From positions 1 to 25,175 of IMG/VR virus record IMGVR_UViG_3300031952_000129: 25,175 nucleotides of DNA; one strand, written 5' to 3'. This stretch comes from a virus. Both the position numbers and the translations under genes were made by a program. Shown piece by piece: positions 4,370 to 25,175 of the stretch. Below the pieces are notes generated by a model, which did no database searches, was not told the DNA's origin, and was given only the letters and a program-made list of their open reading frames with translations. Numbering within the stretch: the first letter of the stretch is position 1; each line of letters opens with the position of its first letter.

Positions 4370-4572
4370 TATTCTACCACTTCAGTTTTTATTGGTTTTA
4401 CTTGTTCAATAGCTCTTTTGCTTTCTTTATGAACTTCTTCAAGCACTTCATAAGCCGCATCAATAGAGTCTCCCCATGTTGTACCATTTGGGATAAGAAA
4501 GCTAAAAACATATTCTTTGCCTTCTTTATTTGTTTTTTTGATCTGAATACTGACGTAATGTAAAATTTCCAT
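4369..4572 (-). CDS. Small hypothetical protein leading the fibre sub-operon
   Basis: A 67-residue protein I do not recognise. It has a beta-rich N-terminal half (ILHYVSIQIKK, GKEYVFSFLIPNGTTWGD) followed by an acidic helix (SIDAAYEVLEEVHKESKRAIEQ) and a short tail. AGGA lies about 4 nt before the ATG. It is the first gene after a strong leftward terminator (4597-4646), and its stop overlaps the next start, so it begins a new co-translated block. An overlapping reading frame on the other strand covers almost the same bases, but this strand is favoured by the ribosome binding site and by coupling. The virion or assembly role is unknown. Confidence 0.62.
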   Translation of the reverse strand: MEILHYVSIQIKKTNKEGKEYVFSFLIPNGTTWGDSIDAAYEVLEEVHKESKRAIEQVKPIKTEVVE

Positions 4573-4596
4573 AAAATCCTAACTTAATATTGGTGT

Positions 4597-4646
4597 ATAA
4601 AAATCATAGCGTTTTATATACTACAAGCAATATACAAAACGCTATG
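4597..4646 (-). terminator. Rho-independent terminator between fibre genes
   Basis: The arms 4605-4620 and 4631-4646 pair over 16 positions with a single mismatch around a 10-nt loop. On the minus strand the stem is followed by ATTTTTATAC. It sits in the 105-bp gap after the 228-codon fibre gene and before the 67-codon gene. The stem is long and the T tract short but clear. It should end or reduce leftward transcription and separate two fibre transcription units. Confidence 0.75.
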
Positions 4647-4677
4647 AGAAAGGAGTAACGAAGCTCAACTTTTTAAA

Positions 4678-5364
4678 CTAACTTTGTCTTACTATTAGAT
4701 AATCAAAGCTTCCAACATCTGTAATAGTTGCTGTCACACCATCATCATCAAAAGAACTTACAACAAAGTCAACTCCAGGACTTATAACATAAGTTAAATT
4801 ACCTATAGCTGCTCCACCAGTAGTTCTACGAGAAATAAATATTCTGTCATTTGCTGCAATATTAGTATTTAAAACAGTAGCAACACCAGCTATTAAAGTA
4901 GCTTGACCAATGGTATCAGTGGCTGCTCCACCGTTTATAGTTAACCCTTTACCAGCTGTAGCAATAACTAAATCACTGTTGACGTTTGTTACTGAACCAG
5001 CAGTAGCAGAGCCAAGAGTTAAAGTTTTAGCTGCTGCACCAGTAGCAATATTTACTGCCGCAACTGCTGCATCAGCAGAGATATTAACAGTTCCAGCAGT
5101 TTGAGTTAATGCACCAGTAACAGTCAAACTTGAAAACACACCAGCTCCACCATTAACTGTAAACTGAATCCATTGAGCCAAGCCCGCACTGTTTTTGTTA
5201 AACATATAAGCAAGATTGTTAGTTTGATCAACCCATACTTGACCAGCTATACCTCTATCAGATGTAAGAGGAGCACGATTAGTAACAATAGGATCTAAAA
5301 ATTGGTTACTTTGAGGACTAGGATAACCATACAAAGAATTAGCACGAGAAACTTTAACTGACAT
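4678..5364 (-). CDS. Tail fibre protein
   Basis: A 228-residue fibre. The N-terminus (VSRANSLYGYPSPQSN, APLTSDRGIAGQVWVDQTNN, AYMFNKNS, WIQF) resembles a virion-anchoring segment seen in many phage fibre-like proteins. The middle is an Ala/Thr/Gly-rich shaft (LTQTAGTVNISADAAVAAV, AAKTLTLGSATAGSVTNV). The C-terminal 65 residues (NDRIFISRRTTGGAAIGNLTY, FVVSSFDDDGVTATITDVG, FDYLIVRQ) form a recurring cap domain. GGAG is placed before the ATG. It is the first leftward gene after the divergent control region 5365-5468 and is followed by a terminator, so it may be expressed as a single-gene unit. It is probably a fibre or fibre-base protein. Confidence 0.75.
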   Translation of the reverse strand: MSVKVSRANSLYGYPSPQSNQFLDPIVTNRAPLTSDRGIAGQVWVDQTNNLAYMFNKNSAGLAQWIQFTVNGGAGVFSSLTVTGALTQTAGTVNISADAAVAAVNIATGAAAKTLTLGSATAGSVTNVNSDLVIATAGKGLTINGGAATDTIGQATLIAGVATVLNTNIAANDRIFISRRTTGGAAIGNLTYVISPGVDFVVSSFDDDGVTATITDVGSFDYLIVRQS

Positions 5365-5395
5365 AAAAACTCCAACAAAATAAAACTAACACTAT

Positions 5396-5401
5396 ATTAT
5401 A
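5396..5401 (-). promoter_or_regulatory. Candidate -10 for the leftward fibre gene
   Basis: A perfect TATAAT on the minus strand lies 31 nt upstream of the fibre ATG at 5364. No good -35 is found 16-18 bp further upstream (ACCAAT region), so activity is uncertain in this AT-rich gap. If used, it would place the 14-bp palindrome at 5431-5444 upstream of this promoter and over the divergent rightward one. Confidence 0.35.
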
Positions 5402-5409
5402 TTTTTTAT

Positions 5410-5438
5410 TTGACAATCATTGGTTAAAAAGTTAACAT
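5410..5438 (+). promoter_or_regulatory. Sigma70-type promoter of the rightward mini-operon
   Basis: A perfect TTGACA (5410-5415) is followed after exactly 17 bp by TAACAT (5433-5438). Expected transcription starts near 5445, just ahead of an AGG-containing ribosome binding site and the ATG at 5469. The -10 lies inside a perfect palindrome. Placement, spacing and the absence of other upstream genes on this strand make this a good promoter call. Confidence 0.7.
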
Positions 5439-5444
5439 GTTAAC
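5431..5444. promoter_or_regulatory. Perfect 14-bp palindrome, likely operator
   Basis: GTTAACATGTTAAC is identical on both strands and covers the -10 of the rightward promoter, so a bound dimer would block RNA polymerase. The second gene of the operon it controls encodes a ribbon-helix-helix protein, a family that binds short inverted repeats and often controls its own promoter. The match of site and regulator is inference. Confidence 0.6.
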
Positions 5445-5468
5445 ATAATGTAATTAGATAGGTTTAAA

Positions 5469-5756
5469 ATGTTAAGCAAAAAACAAATGGATATACAGTT
5501 TGATATATTGGGTCATAAATTACATGAAATCAATAATCAAATTAAAGTTTTAGAAGAGCAAAAAGAAATAATAATAAAAGACTTACGGTTATTGATAGAT
5601 AACAATAGTTATACAACTGCTAATTTTGTATATATAAAAGAGTTTAGAAAAGCGGCAATAGATTATAAAGCCTTAGCAGAAGTTTTTGACGTAGAACAAT
5701 TTAGAAAAAAAGAACAGGTGTTATATTGGATATTCAAGAAAAACCACTCAGAATAA
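5469..5756 (+). CDS. Coiled-coil protein resembling a YqaJ-nuclease C-terminal tail
   Basis: A 95-residue protein. Residues 10-45 form a heptad-like coiled coil (LGHKLHEINNQIKVLEEQKEIIIKDL in outline). A short segment follows with the pattern RKAAIDYKALAEVF...FRK...YW. From memory, some phage YqaJ/lambda-exonuclease-type proteins end in the same order: coiled helix, then RKGSVDYK, then YRKPS and W. Here that tail stands alone without a nuclease domain, so this is a weak family hint only. It is the first gene of a two-gene rightward operon opposite to its structural neighbours, and the RHH gene starts inside its 3' end. The role is unknown; a partner, inhibitor or accessory factor is possible. 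Confidence 0.6.
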   Translation: MLSKKQMDIQFDILGHKLHEINNQIKVLEEQKEIIIKDLRLLIDNNSYTTANFVYIKEFRKAAIDYKALAEVFDVEQFRKKEQVLYWIFKKNHSE

Positions 5757-5899
5757 GACATATGTTAGCAACTGAAGTTAGTCCTGAAACGCATAAAGAA
5801 ATAAAAATGTTAGCAGCCAAAAGAAACATGACTATGAATCTTTGGCTGAATAACGCTATTATTAAGGCAATTAGAGAAGACACAAAATACGATATATAA
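5726..5899 (+). CDS. Ribbon-helix-helix (Arc/CopG-type) regulator
   Basis: A 57-residue protein that I read from the sequence. TTG at 5726 is preferred: CAGG lies 7 nt upstream, and the frame from here includes the short basic beta strand (EKPLRIRHML) expected before the two helices. An ATG start at 5762 would give 45 residues and lose it. The rest fits the RHH fold: SPETHKEIKMLAAKRNM (helix 1, turn), then MNLWLNNAIIKAIRED (helix 2). The gene overlaps the end of the coiled-coil gene in another frame and ends next to a terminator. The likely role is a dimeric DNA-binding repressor acting on the palindrome at 5431-5444. It could alternatively be an antitoxin, but the partner gene does not look like a known toxin. 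Confidence 0.68.
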   Translation: MDIQEKPLRIRHMLATEVSPETHKEIKMLAAKRNMTMNLWLNNAIIKAIREDTKYDI

Positions 5900-5900
5900 A

Positions 5901-5919
5901 AGGGGACTTTTCGTCCCCT
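5901..5919. terminator. Bidirectional terminator between convergent genes
   Basis: The perfect 7-bp stem AGGGGAC/GTCCCCT has a TTTTC loop. Rightward it is followed by GATTTATTTATTT, leftward by CCCTTTTATATAT. It lies between the stop of the RHH gene (5899) and the stop of the 820-residue ejection protein gene (5923), so it can end both transcripts. Confidence 0.8.
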
Positions 5920-5922
5920 GAT

Positions 5923-8385
5923 TTATTTATTTAATAAAAATAATGCTTTTATTGCATTTTTTGCTGCTTTTAAATTTTGAACTGAAGGTTTTTCTACTTG
6001 TTTATTTAATGTATCTAAAAAATTAGAATAAGCTTCAGGATTTGTTTTTTCTAGTGCTACAAGTTTGTTTAAAGTTTTTTGATTACTTTTATATAATGAT
6101 GTACCAATTTTGGTAGCAATTCCTGCTCCTTTTCCAAAAAATGCACTAACTCCACCAGCAATACCTAAATCTTTAAGTTCTTTTACAAGCCCACCATCTT
6201 TATCTATAGCTTTTATTGTTGCTTCAAAATTTGATTTATTTGAATCAAAGTTGTTTTGTAATTGTTTTTTTCCAACTTTAATTTCATCTTTTAAAATAGA
6301 AAGATTTTTCTTGCTGTATTCATTTTTAAATGCTGCATAATCTTTATTGATTGGTGTAATTGCTTTTAAATATTCAGGATTTGCATTATTATTAATTGTA
6401 TTTTTTATTGCATCTTGAACATTGTATATATAATCTCTTTGACTATATGGTGCTTTTTCTGCTAAATTTCCTAAGATTTTTTTAGCTTTTACTAACCCTT
6501 CAATATCGTTATAATTAACATTTTCAATTATTTGATCAACTTGTTTATTTTGTTGACCAAGGTTGCTAGCTTCATTATTTATATTTAATAATTCTTGTTT
6601 CAATTTATTAGCTGATTCTTTTGAAAGTTTTTTATCTACTTTTAGTAACTTATCAGCTTTTTCATATCTAGAACTAAATTCTTTTTGTTTAGGAGCTTCA
6701 GCTTTTTTAAATTCTAATAAATTTTTATCCAACTTATTTTTTTCTGCTTCTAATATTGCTGGTGCTTGTCTTTCTTTTTCTATTTCTATTGGAACTTGTT
6801 CTTTTATAAATTGTTTTTTAGCTTTTCTTTCAGCTAAATACTGACCACCTTTTGAAACAGCTTTTGAAGCAGCAAAGCCTCCTCCAAGTCCGCCTATAAC
6901 TTCTCCGATATCTTTACCTGCTTTACCAGCACCAAGCTCGCCTATTTTTCCACCAACAGCACTACCCGCCATTGATCCAGCTGCTGCGGTTGCAAGTGTA
7001 GCAATTCCTTTTAATGTACCTGTAAGACCTCCTGCATAGGGTACTAATAAAGGGGCAACATATGGTAAAGAATCTTTTAAAGTTTTTACAAGAACTTCAG
7101 GATTTTTAATTTGTTCGTCTGTTACACCTAAATTTTTTAAAACATTTTCAGCTTCTTTTGTTGTAGGAGCAAATGTTTGTCTTATTTTTTGAATAAAACT
7201 TTTTATATTTCCTTCTGGAATATATTGGGTAACTTTATTTACTTGGTCACCTATTCTTGCAATATTTGGAAGAATAGTTTGTAATGCAGTCATTGTTGGA
7301 TTAACAAATCCTTTTTCATATATCGGTTTAATAACATCTTCAAAAACATTACCAGCACCTCTAGGCTTGTTTTCAAAAGACAAAGGTGCCTCTGATGTTA
7401 CTTGTGGCTGCTCTTGCATTTGTTGAGGTTGCATTTGTTGAGGTTGCATTTGTTGAGGTTGCATTTGATCAACTTGCATTTGTTGTGATTGCTGTGGTTG
7501 ATTCAAATAAGCATCAACTTCATCATTTAATTGAGACAAGCTTATATTTGGATTATTACTAAATACTTCTCGTTTTATTTTAGAATTTTGTATAACTTGG
7601 TCATTTAATGCTACAAGCGAATCAACCAATGATTTAACTTGATCTTCATTCATTTGTAATACATCTGGAAACTGCGCTAAATAAGCATCTAATTGTTGAT
7701 TTGAAATCTTGCCTACAAATTGTTTTCTGATATCTTCAATAAATTTTGCTTTATTTTTTACAGCATCAGTAGCATTAGTAGATTGTGTATAAGTAAAAAA
7801 AGATCCTATATAAGGAATTTTTTTGCCAACTTCAGCAATACGATCATAAAAGTTTATACCTTTAGATTGAGTTACCATCTGCTTTAATCTATTATTAACT
7901 TTTTCAGCTGCTTTAGCTTCTTCTACTGCTGGTTGAATATTTTCTTTATAAAAAAGATTAGAATCTTTAGCTTGTTGACGAGACAAAGTTAACTTATTAG
8001 CTTCTTCTTTAGCAAGTGCTGATCTTTCTTTTTGCTGTATCATTTGACTTTGATAAGGACTTAATGGGGTTTGAAATAAATTCCCACCTTGTCCAGCTAA
8101 AACACCTAATCCACCTTGTTGTTGTCCAGCACCTAAAACACCCTGTCCTGGCAAATTTTGTAAAATAGCAAAACGTTCTTTCTCTGGCAAACTCATTAGT
8201 TTATTTGCAAGATCTTGATTTCCACCAACAAAAGGAGCTAAAGCTTGAGCTTGTTTTGCTTGTTGCATTTGTTGAAGCTTCATTTGAGCCAAAGATTGCA
8301 AACCTGAACCCAACCCTGTTCCAAGAGCAGAACCTAAACCAGCACTGGTTCCACCAAGATTTAAAAAGTTTATTCCATCAGCCAT
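5923..8385 (-). CDS. Large internal virion / DNA-ejection-type protein
   Basis: 820 residues. The N-terminus is Gly/Leu/Gln-rich (LNLGGTSAGLGSALGTGLGSG, then MKLQQMQQAKQAQA). Residues 120-290 are helical and charged. Residues 296-327 are an almost pure Gln/Met/Pro linker with MQPQQ copies. About 440-510 is a long Gly/Ala hydrophobic stretch (LATAAAGSMAGSAVGGKIGE, DIGEVIGGLGGGFAASKAV) of glycine-zipper type that could insert in a membrane. The rest is long Lys/Glu/Asn-rich helix with coiled-coil character. This architecture, next to a second Gly-zipper gene and downstream of the nozzle gene, fits the internal proteins that podoviruses eject to carry DNA across the envelope. No lytic transglycosylase motif is seen. 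GGAGGA lies 8 nt before the ATG. Function is inferred, not proven. Confidence 0.65.
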   Translation of the reverse strand: MADGINFLNLGGTSAGLGSALGTGLGSGLQSLAQMKLQQMQQAKQAQALAPFVGGNQDLANKLMSLPEKERFAILQNLPGQGVLGAGQQQGGLGVLAGQGGNLFQTPLSPYQSQMIQQKERSALAKEEANKLTLSRQQAKDSNLFYKENIQPAVEEAKAAEKVNNRLKQMVTQSKGINFYDRIAEVGKKIPYIGSFFTYTQSTNATDAVKNKAKFIEDIRKQFVGKISNQQLDAYLAQFPDVLQMNEDQVKSLVDSLVALNDQVIQNSKIKREVFSNNPNISLSQLNDEVDAYLNQPQQSQQMQVDQMQPQQMQPQQMQPQQMQEQPQVTSEAPLSFENKPRGAGNVFEDVIKPIYEKGFVNPTMTALQTILPNIARIGDQVNKVTQYIPEGNIKSFIQKIRQTFAPTTKEAENVLKNLGVTDEQIKNPEVLVKTLKDSLPYVAPLLVPYAGGLTGTLKGIATLATAAAGSMAGSAVGGKIGELGAGKAGKDIGEVIGGLGGGFAASKAVSKGGQYLAERKAKKQFIKEQVPIEIEKERQAPAILEAEKNKLDKNLLEFKKAEAPKQKEFSSRYEKADKLLKVDKKLSKESANKLKQELLNINNEASNLGQQNKQVDQIIENVNYNDIEGLVKAKKILGNLAEKAPYSQRDYIYNVQDAIKNTINNNANPEYLKAITPINKDYAAFKNEYSKKNLSILKDEIKVGKKQLQNNFDSNKSNFEATIKAIDKDGGLVKELKDLGIAGGVSAFFGKGAGIATKIGTSLYKSNQKTLNKLVALEKTNPEAYSNFLDTLNKQVEKPSVQNLKAAKNAIKALFLLNK
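7414..7458 (-). repeat. 15-bp tandem repeat, three perfect copies
   Basis: TTGCATTTGTTGAGG (plus strand) occurs three times head to tail, with diverged copies continuing to about 7489. It encodes the repeated QPQQM of the linker in the 820-residue protein. The 15-bp unit keeps the frame, so copy number can change linker length without breaking the gene. Confidence 0.85.
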
Positions 8386-9596: not shown

Positions 9597-11785
9597 TATT
9601 GAAACCTATAACTTGTAGGGCTAGAATAAATACACATCGCATGCAATTGAAACCCAGCTTCTCTGATATCAGTATCTAGCATTTGTACTTGATTCATAGT
9701 TAATTCAAACTGAATAACTTCTCCTTCTGCTTGAAAATAAACAGGGTGCCACAATCTTGCTGAAGTTGTTTCAAGTGGAATTAATGGATATGGAAAAGTA
9801 TCTAATGTACCAGTTCCTAATAAAGAACCTGTATTAGCACTGTCTAATAAAAGATTATCTATAGAAGTAGATACATAATAATTTACATCTATCTGACCGT
9901 TTGTAGTTCTATCTACTAAAAAATCAACTTTATTAACAAAACTATTTCGACCGTCTTTTGCATAAAAGTTATATTGTTTAGTTTTAATATTTATTTGGCT
10001 CACTCTAGATATTAAGCCGCCACCTATATATATTCCTGTAAAGCTAGCGTTTGGACCAATAATAATATTATCTTTATCTGTAACCGTTAACACTTGAAAT
10101 ATTTGAGCATTTAAATAATTACCAGCGTTATCCCAAACTGCATTATCAATATAAATATATTGATCTTGAGCTAAGTTATGATCTATAACTTGTAAACTAG
10201 TTTGAAAACCAATTAATGTAATATTAGTAATTTGTAACACTAATTCATTAGTATTTACATTTGTATCGCATATAAAAGTGTAGCCTTGTTGATTTCCAGC
10301 TACAACTTGTTGAAATTTAGGAGAAACTGATCCACTACTCCAAACTACATCAGATGACCATAAGACTGTAGTAGATGACCAAGTTACACCTAATGTTGGT
10401 TGAAAATAACCAAAACAAGTAATTGAGTCATCATTAAACGACCAAGTTCTAGTAGGATAATTATAAACAAATAATTTATTAGGATAAGGAAAATCAGTAC
10501 CTGTTGAAACATCTGGAAAAGTCCAATACAACATTTCACTAAAATAATCTCTAATGCCATAAACACGTTGTGGTCCAAAACTATTATTTTTAATATCAAA
10601 TACTGCATTAGGTATTCTTTGATCGATACGATCAACATTTGAACCATTGCAAGCATGTACGCCAACATTCCCAACCCCGATTGCTAATTTGTCAAAAGGT
10701 ATTACAGAAAAAGTTGATTCAACACCTAATTCTGTATTTATTTGTTGCCAAGAAAATGGATAAATTTGGTTACCTGTATAGGCAAGTTCCCAAGTTGACC
10801 TTTCAAAGTAAACAATTAAACGATCTTTAACAAATTCTACGGTAACTATTGCTTCTTGCGTCGGAGCATCAATAGCATTTCCTCGTCCTACTATGTCTTG
10901 CCTCCATGCATTTACATCTAAAGGAGAACCTATTTGGCAATACCTTGCTCTGTTTACATAATTACTACCAGGGGCTGCACCTTCCCATGTATTAAGGGCA
11001 ATCAATCTATTTTTAAAAACAGTTAAAATTCTAGCAGAATTTAATGTACTACCAAGGGCATCTATAACAGGATTAAAATTATCCCAATCTACACCGTTAT
11101 AAAAACGCATAAAATTGGGTTCGGCTTCATTAAAATTAGTTACAAAAAATATTCTATCTGAAGGGCTTGTACCAGTCCATGTTACACCCCAAAAGAAATC
11201 TGAGTTTGAACCACTCCATTCAGCAGCTCCAACAGTTACCTCACCTGTTATTCTTTCCCAACCAGAATTATAAATGTAAGAAAATCTAGTATCAAAAGCT
11301 ATAGTAGTTTCATCATTTATTGTTGAGTTTTCATATGTCAAAAGCCCCATTACTGGCAAAGAAGGATACCAATAAATATCAGTTAAAGCATCAGCACCTG
11401 TAAATTGAAAATCACCTGTACCAGTATCAAAAGTAGCTAATGTTATAGGTGTTGTTTGTAACATAGAACCATTAACTATAACAACTGTAAAAATATTAGT
11501 ACCAATAGAAAACATTTGACCAATAGCACCAGTTGCTGTAGGAACTGCGGTTAAAACAATATCACCAGCACCATCAGTTGTTCCAACGTTTACCCTTAAT
11601 CTGCTTTTTAATGAGTCATTCTCATTTGCAAAATATCTTGAACCAAATCGTTTTCTTACTCTTCCTCTAAAAACATAAGCATTGTTTAAAGTCTCAAAAG
11701 CATTATCAGGAATTAACCATGGTTTAATATTATTTTGTTGACCAGAATTTTCATCATAAGGGGCAATAAAAAAACGATTTGTCAT
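9596..11785 (-). CDS. Tail nozzle / tail hub protein (gp10- or gp12-like)
   Basis: 729 residues, almost entirely beta. The N-terminus (IPDNAFETLNNAYVFRGRVRKRFGS) has the name-plate of podoviral nozzle proteins: a loop about genome-side contacts followed by a basic V-R-KR-GS turn. The middle shows repeated W-rich blade-like units (RIFFVTNFNEAEPNF, ARILTVFKNRLIALNTWEG, VKDRLIVYFERSTWELAY, WTFPDV, NKLFVYNYPTRTWSFND), consistent with a beta-propeller, as in T7 gp12 and P22 gp10. AGGA precedes the ATG. The neighbours are a fibre upstream and a coupled tail protein downstream. The likely role is the distal tube through which DNA leaves. The assignment rests on pattern and position; a different beta-rich hub protein is possible. 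Confidence 0.65.
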   Translation of the reverse strand: MTNRFFIAPYDENSGQQNNIKPWLIPDNAFETLNNAYVFRGRVRKRFGSRYFANENDSLKSRLRVNVGTTDGAGDIVLTAVPTATGAIGQMFSIGTNIFTVVIVNGSMLQTTPITLATFDTGTGDFQFTGADALTDIYWYPSLPVMGLLTYENSTINDETTIAFDTRFSYIYNSGWERITGEVTVGAAEWSGSNSDFFWGVTWTGTSPSDRIFFVTNFNEAEPNFMRFYNGVDWDNFNPVIDALGSTLNSARILTVFKNRLIALNTWEGAAPGSNYVNRARYCQIGSPLDVNAWRQDIVGRGNAIDAPTQEAIVTVEFVKDRLIVYFERSTWELAYTGNQIYPFSWQQINTELGVESTFSVIPFDKLAIGVGNVGVHACNGSNVDRIDQRIPNAVFDIKNNSFGPQRVYGIRDYFSEMLYWTFPDVSTGTDFPYPNKLFVYNYPTRTWSFNDDSITCFGYFQPTLGVTWSSTTVLWSSDVVWSSGSVSPKFQQVVAGNQQGYTFICDTNVNTNELVLQITNITLIGFQTSLQVIDHNLAQDQYIYIDNAVWDNAGNYLNAQIFQVLTVTDKDNIIIGPNASFTGIYIGGGLISRVSQINIKTKQYNFYAKDGRNSFVNKVDFLVDRTTNGQIDVNYYVSTSIDNLLLDSANTGSLLGTGTLDTFPYPLIPLETTSARLWHPVYFQAEGEVIQFELTMNQVQMLDTDIREAGFQLHAMCIYSSPTSYRFQ

Positions 11786-11786
11786 A

Positions 11787-12410
11787 TTAATATCCTATTG
11801 CAAAATAATTAAAACCATTAGTAGTACTGCCGCCTGCTATAGTTCTATAAGTTGAAATTGAAAAAGCAGTAAGACTAGCACCAGTAACAATGTTATAAAA
11901 TATTCCTCTTCCTGCTGATGAGGCAGTACTTGGAGTAGCTTGTGCACTTAAAACTGCGGTAGGAAATGGTATTGGAAAATTAAATGAAGTAGATACAAGA
12001 GTGTTTAAAGTTATTGTAGCAGAAACTGTACCCCATTGAATAATCAAACCAGAAGGTAAGTATGACCAACCACTTCCACCTGCAACAGGCGCTGAATTAC
12101 TTAAAGTTGAAGCAGTAAATGGCACATTTACAAAATTAGCCCCAACTCCATTAGCTTTGTATACATTTAATTCATTTTTAGTTGTAGTAGCATTTAAAAG
12201 ACTATACAATGCTAAGTCACCAACAGCAATAACAATTGGAAGCACCTGTACTGGAAAAGTTATTTTATTATGTTTTCCTGCTCCAGCATCATTAAAGTTA
12301 ACATGATCAACAGCAAAGGCTGTATTAATAGCATTAAAATTATTTAAGATTAATGGTTGTGTTATGGAAAGAGTTTGATTTGCTTGAGGTATATTTATAT
12401 TTAAAGCCAT
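11787..12410 (-). CDS. Tail fibre with gp53-like C-terminal domain
   Basis: 207 residues. The N-terminal 50 (INIPQANQTLSITQP, NFNAINTAFAVDHVNFND, GKHNKITFP) is a common virion-binding segment of short phage fibres. The C-terminal 95 residues match the gp53-like fibre tip pattern: GWSYLPSGLIIQWG near residue 115, FNFPIPFPTA, then a closing NGFNYFAIGY. AAGGA lies upstream of the ATG. The gene lies between the adaptor and nozzle genes, away from the main fibre array, so it may be the primary side fibre fixed to the tail hub, while the array at the left carries additional tips. Confidence 0.75.
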   Translation of the reverse strand: MALNINIPQANQTLSITQPLILNNFNAINTAFAVDHVNFNDAGAGKHNKITFPVQVLPIVIAVGDLALYSLLNATTTKNELNVYKANGVGANFVNVPFTASTLSNSAPVAGGSGWSYLPSGLIIQWGTVSATITLNTLVSTSFNFPIPFPTAVLSAQATPSTASSAGRGIFYNIVTGASLTAFSISTYRTIAGGSTTNGFNYFAIGY

Positions 12411-12426
12411 GATTTATTTTCCTTAT

Positions 12427-13440
12427 TTAATACGGCCATCCGCCAGATCCAAAAAAACCAAACCCATACGATTTACCTTGAGTATAAATAGTAACCGTTC
12501 TTTCATTAGCCTGTAACGTTAATGTAGAACGCAAACATAATCTTTCTTGTAATTTAAGCTCAGGCATAATCATTTGAACAGAATCAAGATCCATTCTATC
12601 TTCAAAGATTTTCTTTGAAGCTCCATAAGCAATATATTGCCACCATTGTTCTAAATCAGGACTTTCATTAGCTAACAATAGTTCTGTTGGTCTGACATCT
12701 ACTTCTATTTGAACAGGATAGGCTTTATCAGGTACAGGTCTTATGGTAAATTTTGTATCATAAAATAACATTGCAACTGGTTTGCCAGGTTGATAAGCAA
12801 TATTTTCAATAACAATAGGTTCTTGATTTTTAACAGCTGTAGGAAATGTAACCGTAAATTCACCTGTAAGATAATTAATATTTCCATAAGGTCCTGGAGC
12901 AAGACCAGTTTGAGGTTGATTAGGTAAACTTAAAAGCCCTAATACATTAGAAATAGGATTATCAATTAAGACCATTGATACACCAGAAATATCTATGGCT
13001 GTAACAACAACATTTCTTTGAATCATTGGTCTAGCTGTTGCTGTTCCAGTAAAAGTAACTTGAGCATTATTGCCATATAAGCCAGTATTAGTTATTGCAT
13101 TTGTTTGAGGATAATATCCATAGAAAACATTTCTCCATTGAGTATAAAAAGCAGGTATACCAGCTATGTACACAGGTGGGTGTACACAAACGTATTTATT
13201 TTTAAAATTATATAAAGCATTAGTAACTACCGTACTAGTTTCATAAGTGTCAACTCCTGGTTGTGTGTACCAAGTTAAAGTTGTTCTTAACGTTGCTAAT
13301 CGAATTTGCTCAGGAAAATCATATAAGATAAAAGTATTAACATACTCATCTATTTGATTGTCTGTTATCTGAGCAGTATTAGGACTCCTTGTTAGCCTTC
13401 TAACCTTTGTCCTTATAGCACCTAATGTTGAATCTGCCAT
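12427..13440 (-). CDS. Head-to-tail adaptor (P22 gp4-like family)
   Basis: 337 residues from ATG 13440; an in-frame start 21 nt upstream is rejected because AGGAG sits exactly before this ATG. The N-terminus TLGAIRTKVRRLTRSPNTAQ, then DEYVNTFILYDFPEQIRL, is a helical module typical of portal-ring adaptors. A beta-rich insertion follows (about 70-200). The last third has IRPVPDKAYPVQIEVDVRP, LEQWWQYIAYGASKKIFEDR and RTVTIYTQ, conserved in this family in uncultured podoviruses. The C-terminus is Gly/aromatic. It likely docks on the portal and holds the nozzle. The upstream 58-bp gap contains a strong hairpin, possibly controlling its mRNA. Confidence 0.7.
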   Translation of the reverse strand: MADSTLGAIRTKVRRLTRSPNTAQITDNQIDEYVNTFILYDFPEQIRLATLRTTLTWYTQPGVDTYETSTVVTNALYNFKNKYVCVHPPVYIAGIPAFYTQWRNVFYGYYPQTNAITNTGLYGNNAQVTFTGTATARPMIQRNVVVTAIDISGVSMVLIDNPISNVLGLLSLPNQPQTGLAPGPYGNINYLTGEFTVTFPTAVKNQEPIVIENIAYQPGKPVAMLFYDTKFTIRPVPDKAYPVQIEVDVRPTELLLANESPDLEQWWQYIAYGASKKIFEDRMDLDSVQMIMPELKLQERLCLRSTLTLQANERTVTIYTQGKSYGFGFFGSGGWPY

Positions 13441-19622: not shown

Positions 19623-19697
19623 TGGCACCCCTATCCAGAATCGAACTGGATTCTATAGCGTGAAAGGCTATCGATCTAACCAGTAATCTATAGGGGC
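19623..19697 (-). tRNA. tRNA-Glu (anticodon UUC)
   Basis: 75 nt folded by hand: acceptor GCCCCTA/TAGGGGT (first pair G-U), TA, D arm GATT/GATC with ACTGGTTA loop, anticodon arm ATAGC-CTTTCAC-GCTAT with TTC, a 4-nt variable loop, T arm TCCAG-TTCGATT-CTGGA, discriminator G, encoded CCA. All arms are complete, and the G discriminator fits Glu. It would decode GAA/GAG, with GAA common in this AT-rich phage. Its first 30 nt are also the end of the HNH gene. Confidence 0.92.
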
Positions 19698-20219
19698 ATT
19701 ATTTATTAAAGATTTTTTAAATAACCATTCTTTTTTTTGATGTTCGCTGTTTGTTAACAATTCTAAATTATTAATATCATTATTTAAACCATTACCGTCT
19801 TTGTGATGAACATGTTCATTCTTTAATAATTTTCTACCTAAAAATTGTTCTATAATGTAACGATGTTCGCGAATTTGTTTGCCATTTATATATAATGTTT
19901 TGTAAGTATGATGAGGCAATTTTAAATCAATTAATTTATTTCTAATAAAATTAGGGTTAGCCCATAATTGATTTAATCTATCTGTTCCCGTGCATGATTT
20001 ACTACAAAACTTAACATTATATTTTTTTAATCTAAACAAACGCGCATAAAATTGTTTTTTACAAATAGCGCAATCTAAATATTTACCAGTACGTTTTTTA
20101 AACTTATTTTGCTTGCGCATATTATTAAGATTTACAATACTAGCACATTTTTTGCCGCAGTATATTTGCAATTTTGCTTTAGGGCTAAATTCACAAAGGC
20201 AGTATAAACAATTTTTCAT
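19668..20219 (-). CDS. HNH homing endonuclease overlapping the tRNA gene
   Basis: 183 residues. Two Cys4 zinc-ribbon-like elements (Cys4, 7, 21, 25 and Cys50, 53, 72, 76) precede a C-terminal HNH_3-type nuclease: EHRYIIEQFLGRKL, then HVHHKDGNGLNNDINNLELL, in pieces, and SEHQ. His138/His139, the Asn of NNDINN and His160 give the metal and catalytic residues. Codons 175-183 and the stop (TAG) are the first 30 nt of tRNA-Glu, so the tail APIDYWLDR is tRNA-encoded. No ribosome site is seen; a promoter places the start of the RNA at about the ATG. It is a selfish free-standing endonuclease, probably inserted beside the tRNA. Confidence 0.85.
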   Translation of the reverse strand: MKNCLYCLCEFSPKAKLQIYCGKKCASIVNLNNMRKQNKFKKRTGKYLDCAICKKQFYARLFRLKKYNVKFCSKSCTGTDRLNQLWANPNFIRNKLIDLKLPHHTYKTLYINGKQIREHRYIIEQFLGRKLLKNEHVHHKDGNGLNNDINNLELLTNSEHQKKEWLFKKSLINNAPIDYWLDR

Positions 20220-24643: not shown

Positions 24644-25175
24644 ATGATAATTTTATTTATAAGTTTTGCTTTGATTAATTGTTCATGGCACGGTCATTCT
24701 CCTGCTGAATGGAAACGACCACACAGAAAAACAACTGATAAAGCTTTTTCAACTCTTTTGCCTTTAGAGTCGTCTTCGACTCCTTTGTTTTTAGAAGAAG
24801 AAATTAGCGACGATGAAACCGATGAAACTAGACGATGCAGATGGGAACTAGTTAGTCCTTATGATGCTGAGCATTTGGTGGGCGCTGGCGCTTTGGTAGG
24901 CGCTGACGCTTTGGAAACCACAAAAAAAACTCTTTCACCCAAAAGCGAAACGATTGTTTTCTTAGAGAAGCTAAAGCGTTTTGACAAAGAGCTAACAGAA
25001 ATAGATACAGAAGCAGCCGACATGGTTGCTAAACACATGGAGCAAAATAGCGATTCATTTTGCAGGTCAGCAATAGTTAAAAACTCTGAGGTCTGGCGAG
25101 GTGTTCACCCTGATATGATGGAGTGTAGTTCTTTCTTTGCTTCTGACTCATTTCACGAAGACAGTAACGTTGATA
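24644..25175 (+). CDS. Unknown exported protein, 3' end outside window
   Basis: My reading gives an open frame of 177 codons that continues past the right edge. ATG 24644 lies 1 nt after the terminase stop, with GGGAG 5-6 nt upstream, so it is co-expressed. The N-terminus IILFISFALINCSWHG looks like a short signal sequence with a lipobox-like LINC, though Asn before Cys is not typical. The rest is acidic and low in hydrophobic residues (LEEEISDDETDE), with a duplicated LVGAGA/LVGADA stretch and later a helix (VFLEKLKRFDKELTEIDTEAA, in part). I do not recognise the family. Its base composition in the repeat is richer in GC than its neighbours. A surface lipoprotein (for example exclusion) is a guess only. 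Confidence 0.6.
   Translation, partial: MIILFISFALINCSWHGHSPAEWKRPHRKTTDKAFSTLLPLESSSTPLFLEEEISDDETDETRRCRWELVSPYDAEHLVGAGALVGADALETTKKTLSPKSETIVFLEKLKRFDKELTEIDTEAADMVAKHMEQNSDSFCRSAIVKNSEVWRGVHPDMMECSSFFASDSFHEDSNVD
24875..24910 (+). repeat. 18-bp imperfect tandem duplication
   Basis: TTGGTGGGCGCTGGCGCT is followed directly by TTGGTAGGCGCTGACGCT (two differences). It is in frame in the partial gene at 24644 and notably GC-rich for this genome, a sign of recent duplication. Confidence 0.8.

Follow-up and report, generated by a model that had tools for sequence, protein, structure and literature searches.

A Probable Autoregulated Ribbon-Helix-Helix Operon Divergent from the Tail Fibre Gene in a New Phage Family

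In the virus record IMGVR_UViG_3300031952_000129 (25,175 nucleotides analysed, hereafter the window), an operon encoding a ribbon-helix-helix (RHH) protein is most probably autoregulated by this protein, a putative Arc-type repressor of a new phage family. The evidence consists of the gene order, the promoter, a dyad kept in register with compensating changes and the conservation of the family, all of which are seen in the compared sequences.

Organization of the Locus

The window, a 25-kb virus record, has a P22-type portal gene (phrog_156, E = 1e-78) and coat and terminase genes. Amid its leftward structural genes, two rightward genes encoding p95 and the RHH protein form an operon closed by a bidirectional terminator, as the original prediction described (Table 1). 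Both ORFs are open, with a 31-bp overlap. The promoter TTGACA-N17-TAACAT was found at 5410–5438, where it had been placed before, and the 14-bp palindrome GTTAACATGTTAAC is exact and overlaps the −10 box. The neighbouring 820-aa gene may encode an ejection protein, judging from its position. A search of Rfam revealed no match within 4500–6200.

Table 1. Features of the RHH locus in the window.
Feature	Position	Strand	Basis
−35 box TTGACA of the RHH operon promoter	5410–5415	+	Sequence; TTGAC at equal distance in most relatives
−10 box TAACAT of the RHH operon promoter, 17-bp spacing	5433–5438	+	Sequence
Proposed operator array within the spacer and across the −10 box, three 8-bp units: GTTAAAAA, GTTAACAT, GTTAACAT	5423–5446		Sequence
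Conserved-register subsite of the operator array	5423–5436		Comparison with relatives
Perfect palindrome GTTAACATGTTAAC, from repeat units 2 and 3	5431–5444		
Further copy TTTAAAATGTTAAG, weak and possibly due to chance, 32 bp (4 × 8) downstream across the start codon of p95	5463–5476		
p95, 95 aa, ATG start, helical	5469–5756	+	ORF
RHH protein, 57 aa, TTG start	5726–5899	+	ORF; profile matches
Bidirectional intrinsic terminator separating the RHH gene from the 820-aa structural gene	5901–5919		
Divergent fibre gene, K1-lyase C-terminal domain, family-conserved N-terminus	5364→4678	−	
Leftward TATAAT, possible −10 box of the fibre promoter, without recognisable −35 box	5396–5401	−	Sequence; inference
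820-aa gene, leftward neighbour	8385→5923	−	

Taken alone, the window makes no more than a suggestive case for regulation. The RHH promoter has 10 of 12 consensus matches and is the joint best promoter-like site in 4500–6500; there are 11 such sites against 10.6 expected, i.e., no excess. The palindrome is made of two exact copies of GTTAACAT, which together with the preceding GTTAAAAA give three 8-bp units. The chance of an exact tandem 8-mer is P ~0.008, and that of a perfect palindrome in the 104-bp intergenic region is P ~0.04. A single palindrome is nevertheless weak evidence, because the window contains three perfect palindromes of at least 14 bp, with 2.9 expected. The search for the palindrome beyond the promoter, proposed in the original prediction, indicated that GTTAACATGTTAAC is unique in the window. 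The contig of the relative G001 adds 12 kb on the left side to this search, and it contains no further copy of GTTAACATGTTAAC, exact or with one or two mismatches, except the overlapping neighbour shifted by 8 bp. A scan of the collection for GTTAACATGTTAACAT revealed 19 contigs, two of them already-known relatives of the window.

Several other features of the window can be noted. The 820-aa gene (ORF 5923–8385, minus strand) contains a hypervariable Gln/Met/Pro-rich stretch at 6800–7500 with 15-bp repeats at 7414–7485; compared with locus L007, this stretch is strongly diverged and has gaps, and its flanks are nearly identical. A very long terminator-like hairpin (4604–4647, minus strand, 20 pairs, loop of 4) is located 3′ of the leftward 228-aa fibre gene, which suggests a separate transcript for the fibre gene at 5364. 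An HNH-endonuclease-like ORF, named by its HHKDGNGLNND motif alone, is found among the genes of the structural region (19668–20219, minus strand). The ORF 24644–25174, which is secreted/lipoprotein-like, contains an 18-bp repeat in 2.3 copies (24874–24914); the gene carries it as an in-frame insertion when compared with its counterpart in L035 (2449–3228), and a second ORF of L035 (4107–4751) has a similar ASAPTK repeat.

The RHH Protein

A 57-residue RHH protein starting from TTG had been predicted, and both parts of this prediction are borne out by profile matches and by the N-termini of the family, which fit the TTG start. The window protein matches Pfam HicB with E = 6e-4 and 20.1 bits, narrowly missing the cut-off of 21 bits, and a PHROG HicB-like antitoxin with E = 2e-4. 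Homologues tested one by one clear the Pfam HicB cut-off with 25.8, 21.8, and 21.1 bits; these are two stand-alone RHH members and one HNH–RHH fusion. Of nine family members, eight are matched by HicB, seven by Antitox_RHH, and six by ParD. By profile match, the family of the window protein belongs to the ribbon-helix-helix (MetJ/Arc) superfamily. The TTG start supplies the strand and the basic N-terminus present in homologues, and it is supported because the in-frame ATG at 5762 would cut off part of the strand along with the basic residues. The strand residues are Met, Ala, and Glu, compared with the usual Gln, Ala, and Asp, and about eight residues lie beyond helix 2.

The single-sequence AlphaFold model of the RHH monomer (helices 5–17 and 20–54, no strand, pTM 0.41) is uninformative for an obligate dimer. 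A sequence search of the PDB revealed no relevant match, and a tblastn search of phage and plasmid records with the RHH protein no convincing one. The RHH matches in loci L005 and L006 were rejected as chance, as they comprise 11 residues in a different gene.

Distribution in Related Phages

About 150 loci were gathered by capsid and portal searches, and RHH genes were sought using tblastn and a profile (A2) built from nine RHH proteins. With this profile, RHH homologues were detected in 31 of 50 related phage records. The RHH gene adjoins the fibre gene and is divergent from it in nearly all loci examined, typically at a distance of 90–130 bp, and the N-terminus encoded by the fibre gene beside it is conserved (YGYPNPQ...). 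The distances between RHH proteins correlate with those between tail proteins (Mantel r = 0.51, p = 0.0014), which indicates that the RHH gene is mostly inherited with the phage. The module is ~99.5% identical in DNA in the three closest relatives of the window. Its near-identity between the window and G002 was considered as a sign of a recently transferred island; this idea was dropped, since the neighbouring stretches are equally conserved. Searches of GTDB genomes with terminase and capsid protein queries revealed no host or prophage relative, and no close cultured relative was found in the phage collection.

Conservation and Covariation of the Operator Dyad

The RHH promoters of the relatives mostly have the form TTGAC(A/T)-N17-TAnnAT, and the centre of their dyad is located 3 bp before the −10 box. 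Examples are CTATCATGATAG in loci L188 and L191, CTAACATGTTAG in L189, CTAGCATGCTAG in L193, CTACCATGGTAT in L204, and CTAACAAGTTAG in L221. About 18 relatives keep this dyad in register while its bases change in a compensating way, and the autoregulated RHH repressor that had been proposed from the window is thereby well supported. The dyad was compared with a shuffle in which right halves were swapped among loci; since the loci are related, the p-values are inexact, being 0.009 for the 15 loci anchored automatically on TTGAC (54 of 90 pairs complementary, shuffle mean 47.6) and 0.004 for 19 loci, i.e., these 15 and four anchored by hand (73 of 114 pairs, 64.5 after shuffling). In the 15 loci, this register scores above all 37 other registers, and in the 19 loci it is also the best one tested. 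The dyad is found upstream of the RHH gene both with and without p95. Six records that do not belong to the group of the window have perfect TANCATGNTA palindromes at the RHH promoter, this pattern having been picked after the sites were seen.

The original prediction took the 14-bp palindrome for the operator, and this holds in part. A dyad is indeed located on the RHH promoter; however, the register shared with the relatives corresponds in the window to GTTAAAAAGTTAAC (centre 5429.5), one repeat upstream of GTTAACATGTTAAC (centre 5437.5), and the perfect 14-mer is an extra 8-bp repeat. The operator variant of the window escapes the covariation test because the region hardly varies in three near-identical relatives.

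The middle pair of the dyad occurs in all four forms (A-T, T-A, G-C, and C-G), and it seems to follow residue 15 of the RHH strand (window numbering), which is expected on the strand face facing DNA. Among the 12 loci with Ala at this residue, 11 have T as the middle base of the right half; Thr is accompanied by A, Asn by C, Ser by G, and Cys by T, in loci that are not independent.

The dyad and the tandem units overlap the RHH gene's own promoter, as in an autoregulatory operon. Promoter, operator array, p95, RHH gene, and terminator would make up a self-contained operon that runs antisense to the late structural genes around it. Its RHH protein is most likely an Arc/CopG-type repressor acting as a dimer, which would bind its own promoter at the 8-bp repeats that lie in the spacer and cover the −10 box. 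When bound, it would block RNA polymerase, and the RHH protein and the linked cargo, here p95, would thereby be held low or limited to one infection stage. We infer DNA binding, repression as its direction, this timing, and the effect on the fibre promoter considered below. The constant parts of the module in the family would be the RHH gene, the operator, and the divergent place beside the tail fibre gene, with varying cargo.

Variable Cargo

The p95 profile (A3) was detected in 6 of 32 records. In five of them (G001, G002, G024, G029, and G041), p95 is next to the RHH gene, and in the sixth it is far from it. Thus, the two-gene operon with the RHH gene last, described in the original prediction, exists in the window but does not characterize the family: p95 precedes the RHH gene only in the group of the window, and in G024, G029, and G041 it is located after it. 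On this comparison, the ancestral unit is the RHH gene with the divergent fibre gene, and p95 is optional cargo. In other records, the cargo 3′ of the RHH gene comprises HNH endonucleases, small hydrophobic proteins, small membrane or zinc-binding-like proteins, and small cysteine-rich proteins, and it is non-homologous from phage to phage. Free-standing HNH genes follow the RHH gene in L227 and L205. In L195 (record G028), HNH_3 (E = 4e-11) is fused in frame to a HicB-type RHH, and in L212 (record G029), GIY-YIG (E = 1.5e-12) is fused in frame and has an RHH-like tail.

The members of the p95 family (window 5469–5756, G024 11606–11905, G041 26138–26425, and G029 12455–12727) have the common pattern (G)GF-x-RKG-x-DY...(Y/F)RK. 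The family weakly matches RecE-like exonucleases in their C-terminal part (phrog_434, E = 0.004). The single-sequence AlphaFold model of p95 is helical and poor, as was the RHH model. No antirepressor match for p95 was revealed in family searches, and the search for its homologues in phage and plasmid records gave no convincing match.

Divergent Promoter of the Fibre Gene

In the relatives, 10 of 16 loci have a leftward TTGNNW box at a distance of exactly 5 bp from the −35 box of the RHH gene, compared with a mean of 0.3 and a maximum of 4 in 2000 shuffles, and the fibre and RHH promoters appear to be back-to-back. The leftward −10 box is poorly conserved. In the window, the intergenic space is shorter, the leftward −35 box is absent, and only the leftward TATAAT (5396–5401) can be noted. 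The suggestion that the RHH protein also controls the fibre gene therefore gains from the conserved divergent pairing and the back-to-back promoters of the relatives, and loses from the window itself; for the family, such control is plausible.

Possibly, the RHH protein governs both divergent promoters, its own shut-off freeing or directly altering the fibre promoter and thus changing the timing or amount of the tail fibre. We regard this as a tentative reading, worth keeping though not the one to be expected. The divergence of the RHH and fibre genes is kept in deeply diverged records, even when terminase or portal genes replace the tail gene on the other side. Simultaneous binding by two polymerases is hardly possible with boxes 5 bp apart, and there is a possible parallel in P22, where the immI region is thought to influence the tailspike level (2008 paper, PMC2629481). 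However, the operator is located on the RHH promoter and not on the fibre promoter, the leftward −10 box is weakly kept, and the window has no leftward −35 box. A broader and more doubtful picture would be a conserved divergent RHH/fibre switch, in which the two promoters, their −35 boxes being 5 bp apart, are mutually exclusive and autorepression passes polymerase to the fibre promoter. Its operator specificity would drift through paired changes of one strand residue and the middle pair, and homing nucleases would invade the RHH gene and even fuse with it, all this in uncultured, apparently integrase-less phages with a P22-like portal.

Alternative Explanations

The dyad might be a chance feature of AT-rich DNA or the site of another regulator, encoded by the phage or its host, with the RHH protein acting elsewhere. 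The single palindrome of the window, being close to chance, would allow this, but the conserved register and compensating changes in the relatives and the tracking of the RHH strand residue by the dyad make it unlikely, and there is no other shared regulator gene at the locus. The small two-gene operon with its overlap, together with top RHH matches to the antitoxin families HicB, Antitox_RHH, and ParD, could also be read as a type II toxin–antitoxin system, in which p95 is the toxin and the RHH protein an autoregulating antitoxin. This is improbable: most RHH-bearing relatives have no p95, the cargo beside the RHH gene is not homologous from one phage to another, the ~8 residues after helix 2 leave little space for a toxin-binding tail, and p95 has no match to toxin families in family searches and none in PADLOC.

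The least probable reading is an immunity switch, with the RHH protein keeping the prophage state as Mnt does in P22. The genome position and the type of promoter layout are those of P22 immI. Nevertheless, no tyrosine integrase was found in any of the 29 related records, many of them near genome length, while all 14 control genomes were positive, and none of the cargo that was translated and read was recognised as an antirepressor. Classical lysogeny through a tyrosine integrase is therefore unlikely, a result with which serine integrases or plasmid-like states would be compatible, and the word "switch" of the original prediction finds no support in the sense of lysogeny. With the comparison of relatives, a guess from a single palindrome becomes a family-wide, testable regulator–operator pair. 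The changes of strand residue and operator pair may serve as a natural data set for the rules of DNA recognition by RHH proteins.

Comparison with Known Systems

The Arc, CopG, MetJ, and omega repressors are single-domain RHH proteins with autoregulation and short tandem operator units. The family described here shares with them a single RHH domain of 45–63 aa, tandem short operator units, and predicted autoregulation; the single-sequence model did not recover their RHH fold. The HicB, ParD, and FitA antitoxins include the best Pfam matches of the family; unlike them, the RHH protein here has no cognate toxin and a short C-terminus, and its cargo changes among phages.

The closest known system to the operon of the window is the immI region of P22 (mnt, arc, ant, and sieA). 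This region, or "ant moron", has gene 16 on one side and the tailspike gene 9 on the other, encodes RHH repressors, and varies strongly between phages (PMC8022706, PMC2629481). It possesses divergent promoters of its own, and the Arc operator is placed between the −35 and −10 boxes (PMC8022706, PMC2629481; P22 record). Several differences can be noted. The window encodes one RHH protein, whereas P22 has two (Arc and Mnt), and profile comparison did not match the RHH protein confidently to Arc or Mnt of P22. The operator here consists of 8-bp tandem units, in contrast to the 21-bp Arc site, and the cargo contains no antirepressor, unlike ant of P22; no integrase was found here. The partner of the divergent promoter is, unlike in P22, the fibre gene itself, and this conserved link raises the question of whether the receptor-binding protein is controlled separately from the rest of the virion. 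In both systems, RHH genes with their own promoter lie between the last ejection or tail gene and the tailspike or fibre gene, partly antisense to late genes and with variable cargo, and the operator is placed between the −35 and −10 boxes of a TTGACA-N17 promoter, with divergent overlapping promoters. The P22-type placement of an RHH repressor by the receptor-binding gene thus appears to extend to phages in which no tyrosine integrase was detected.
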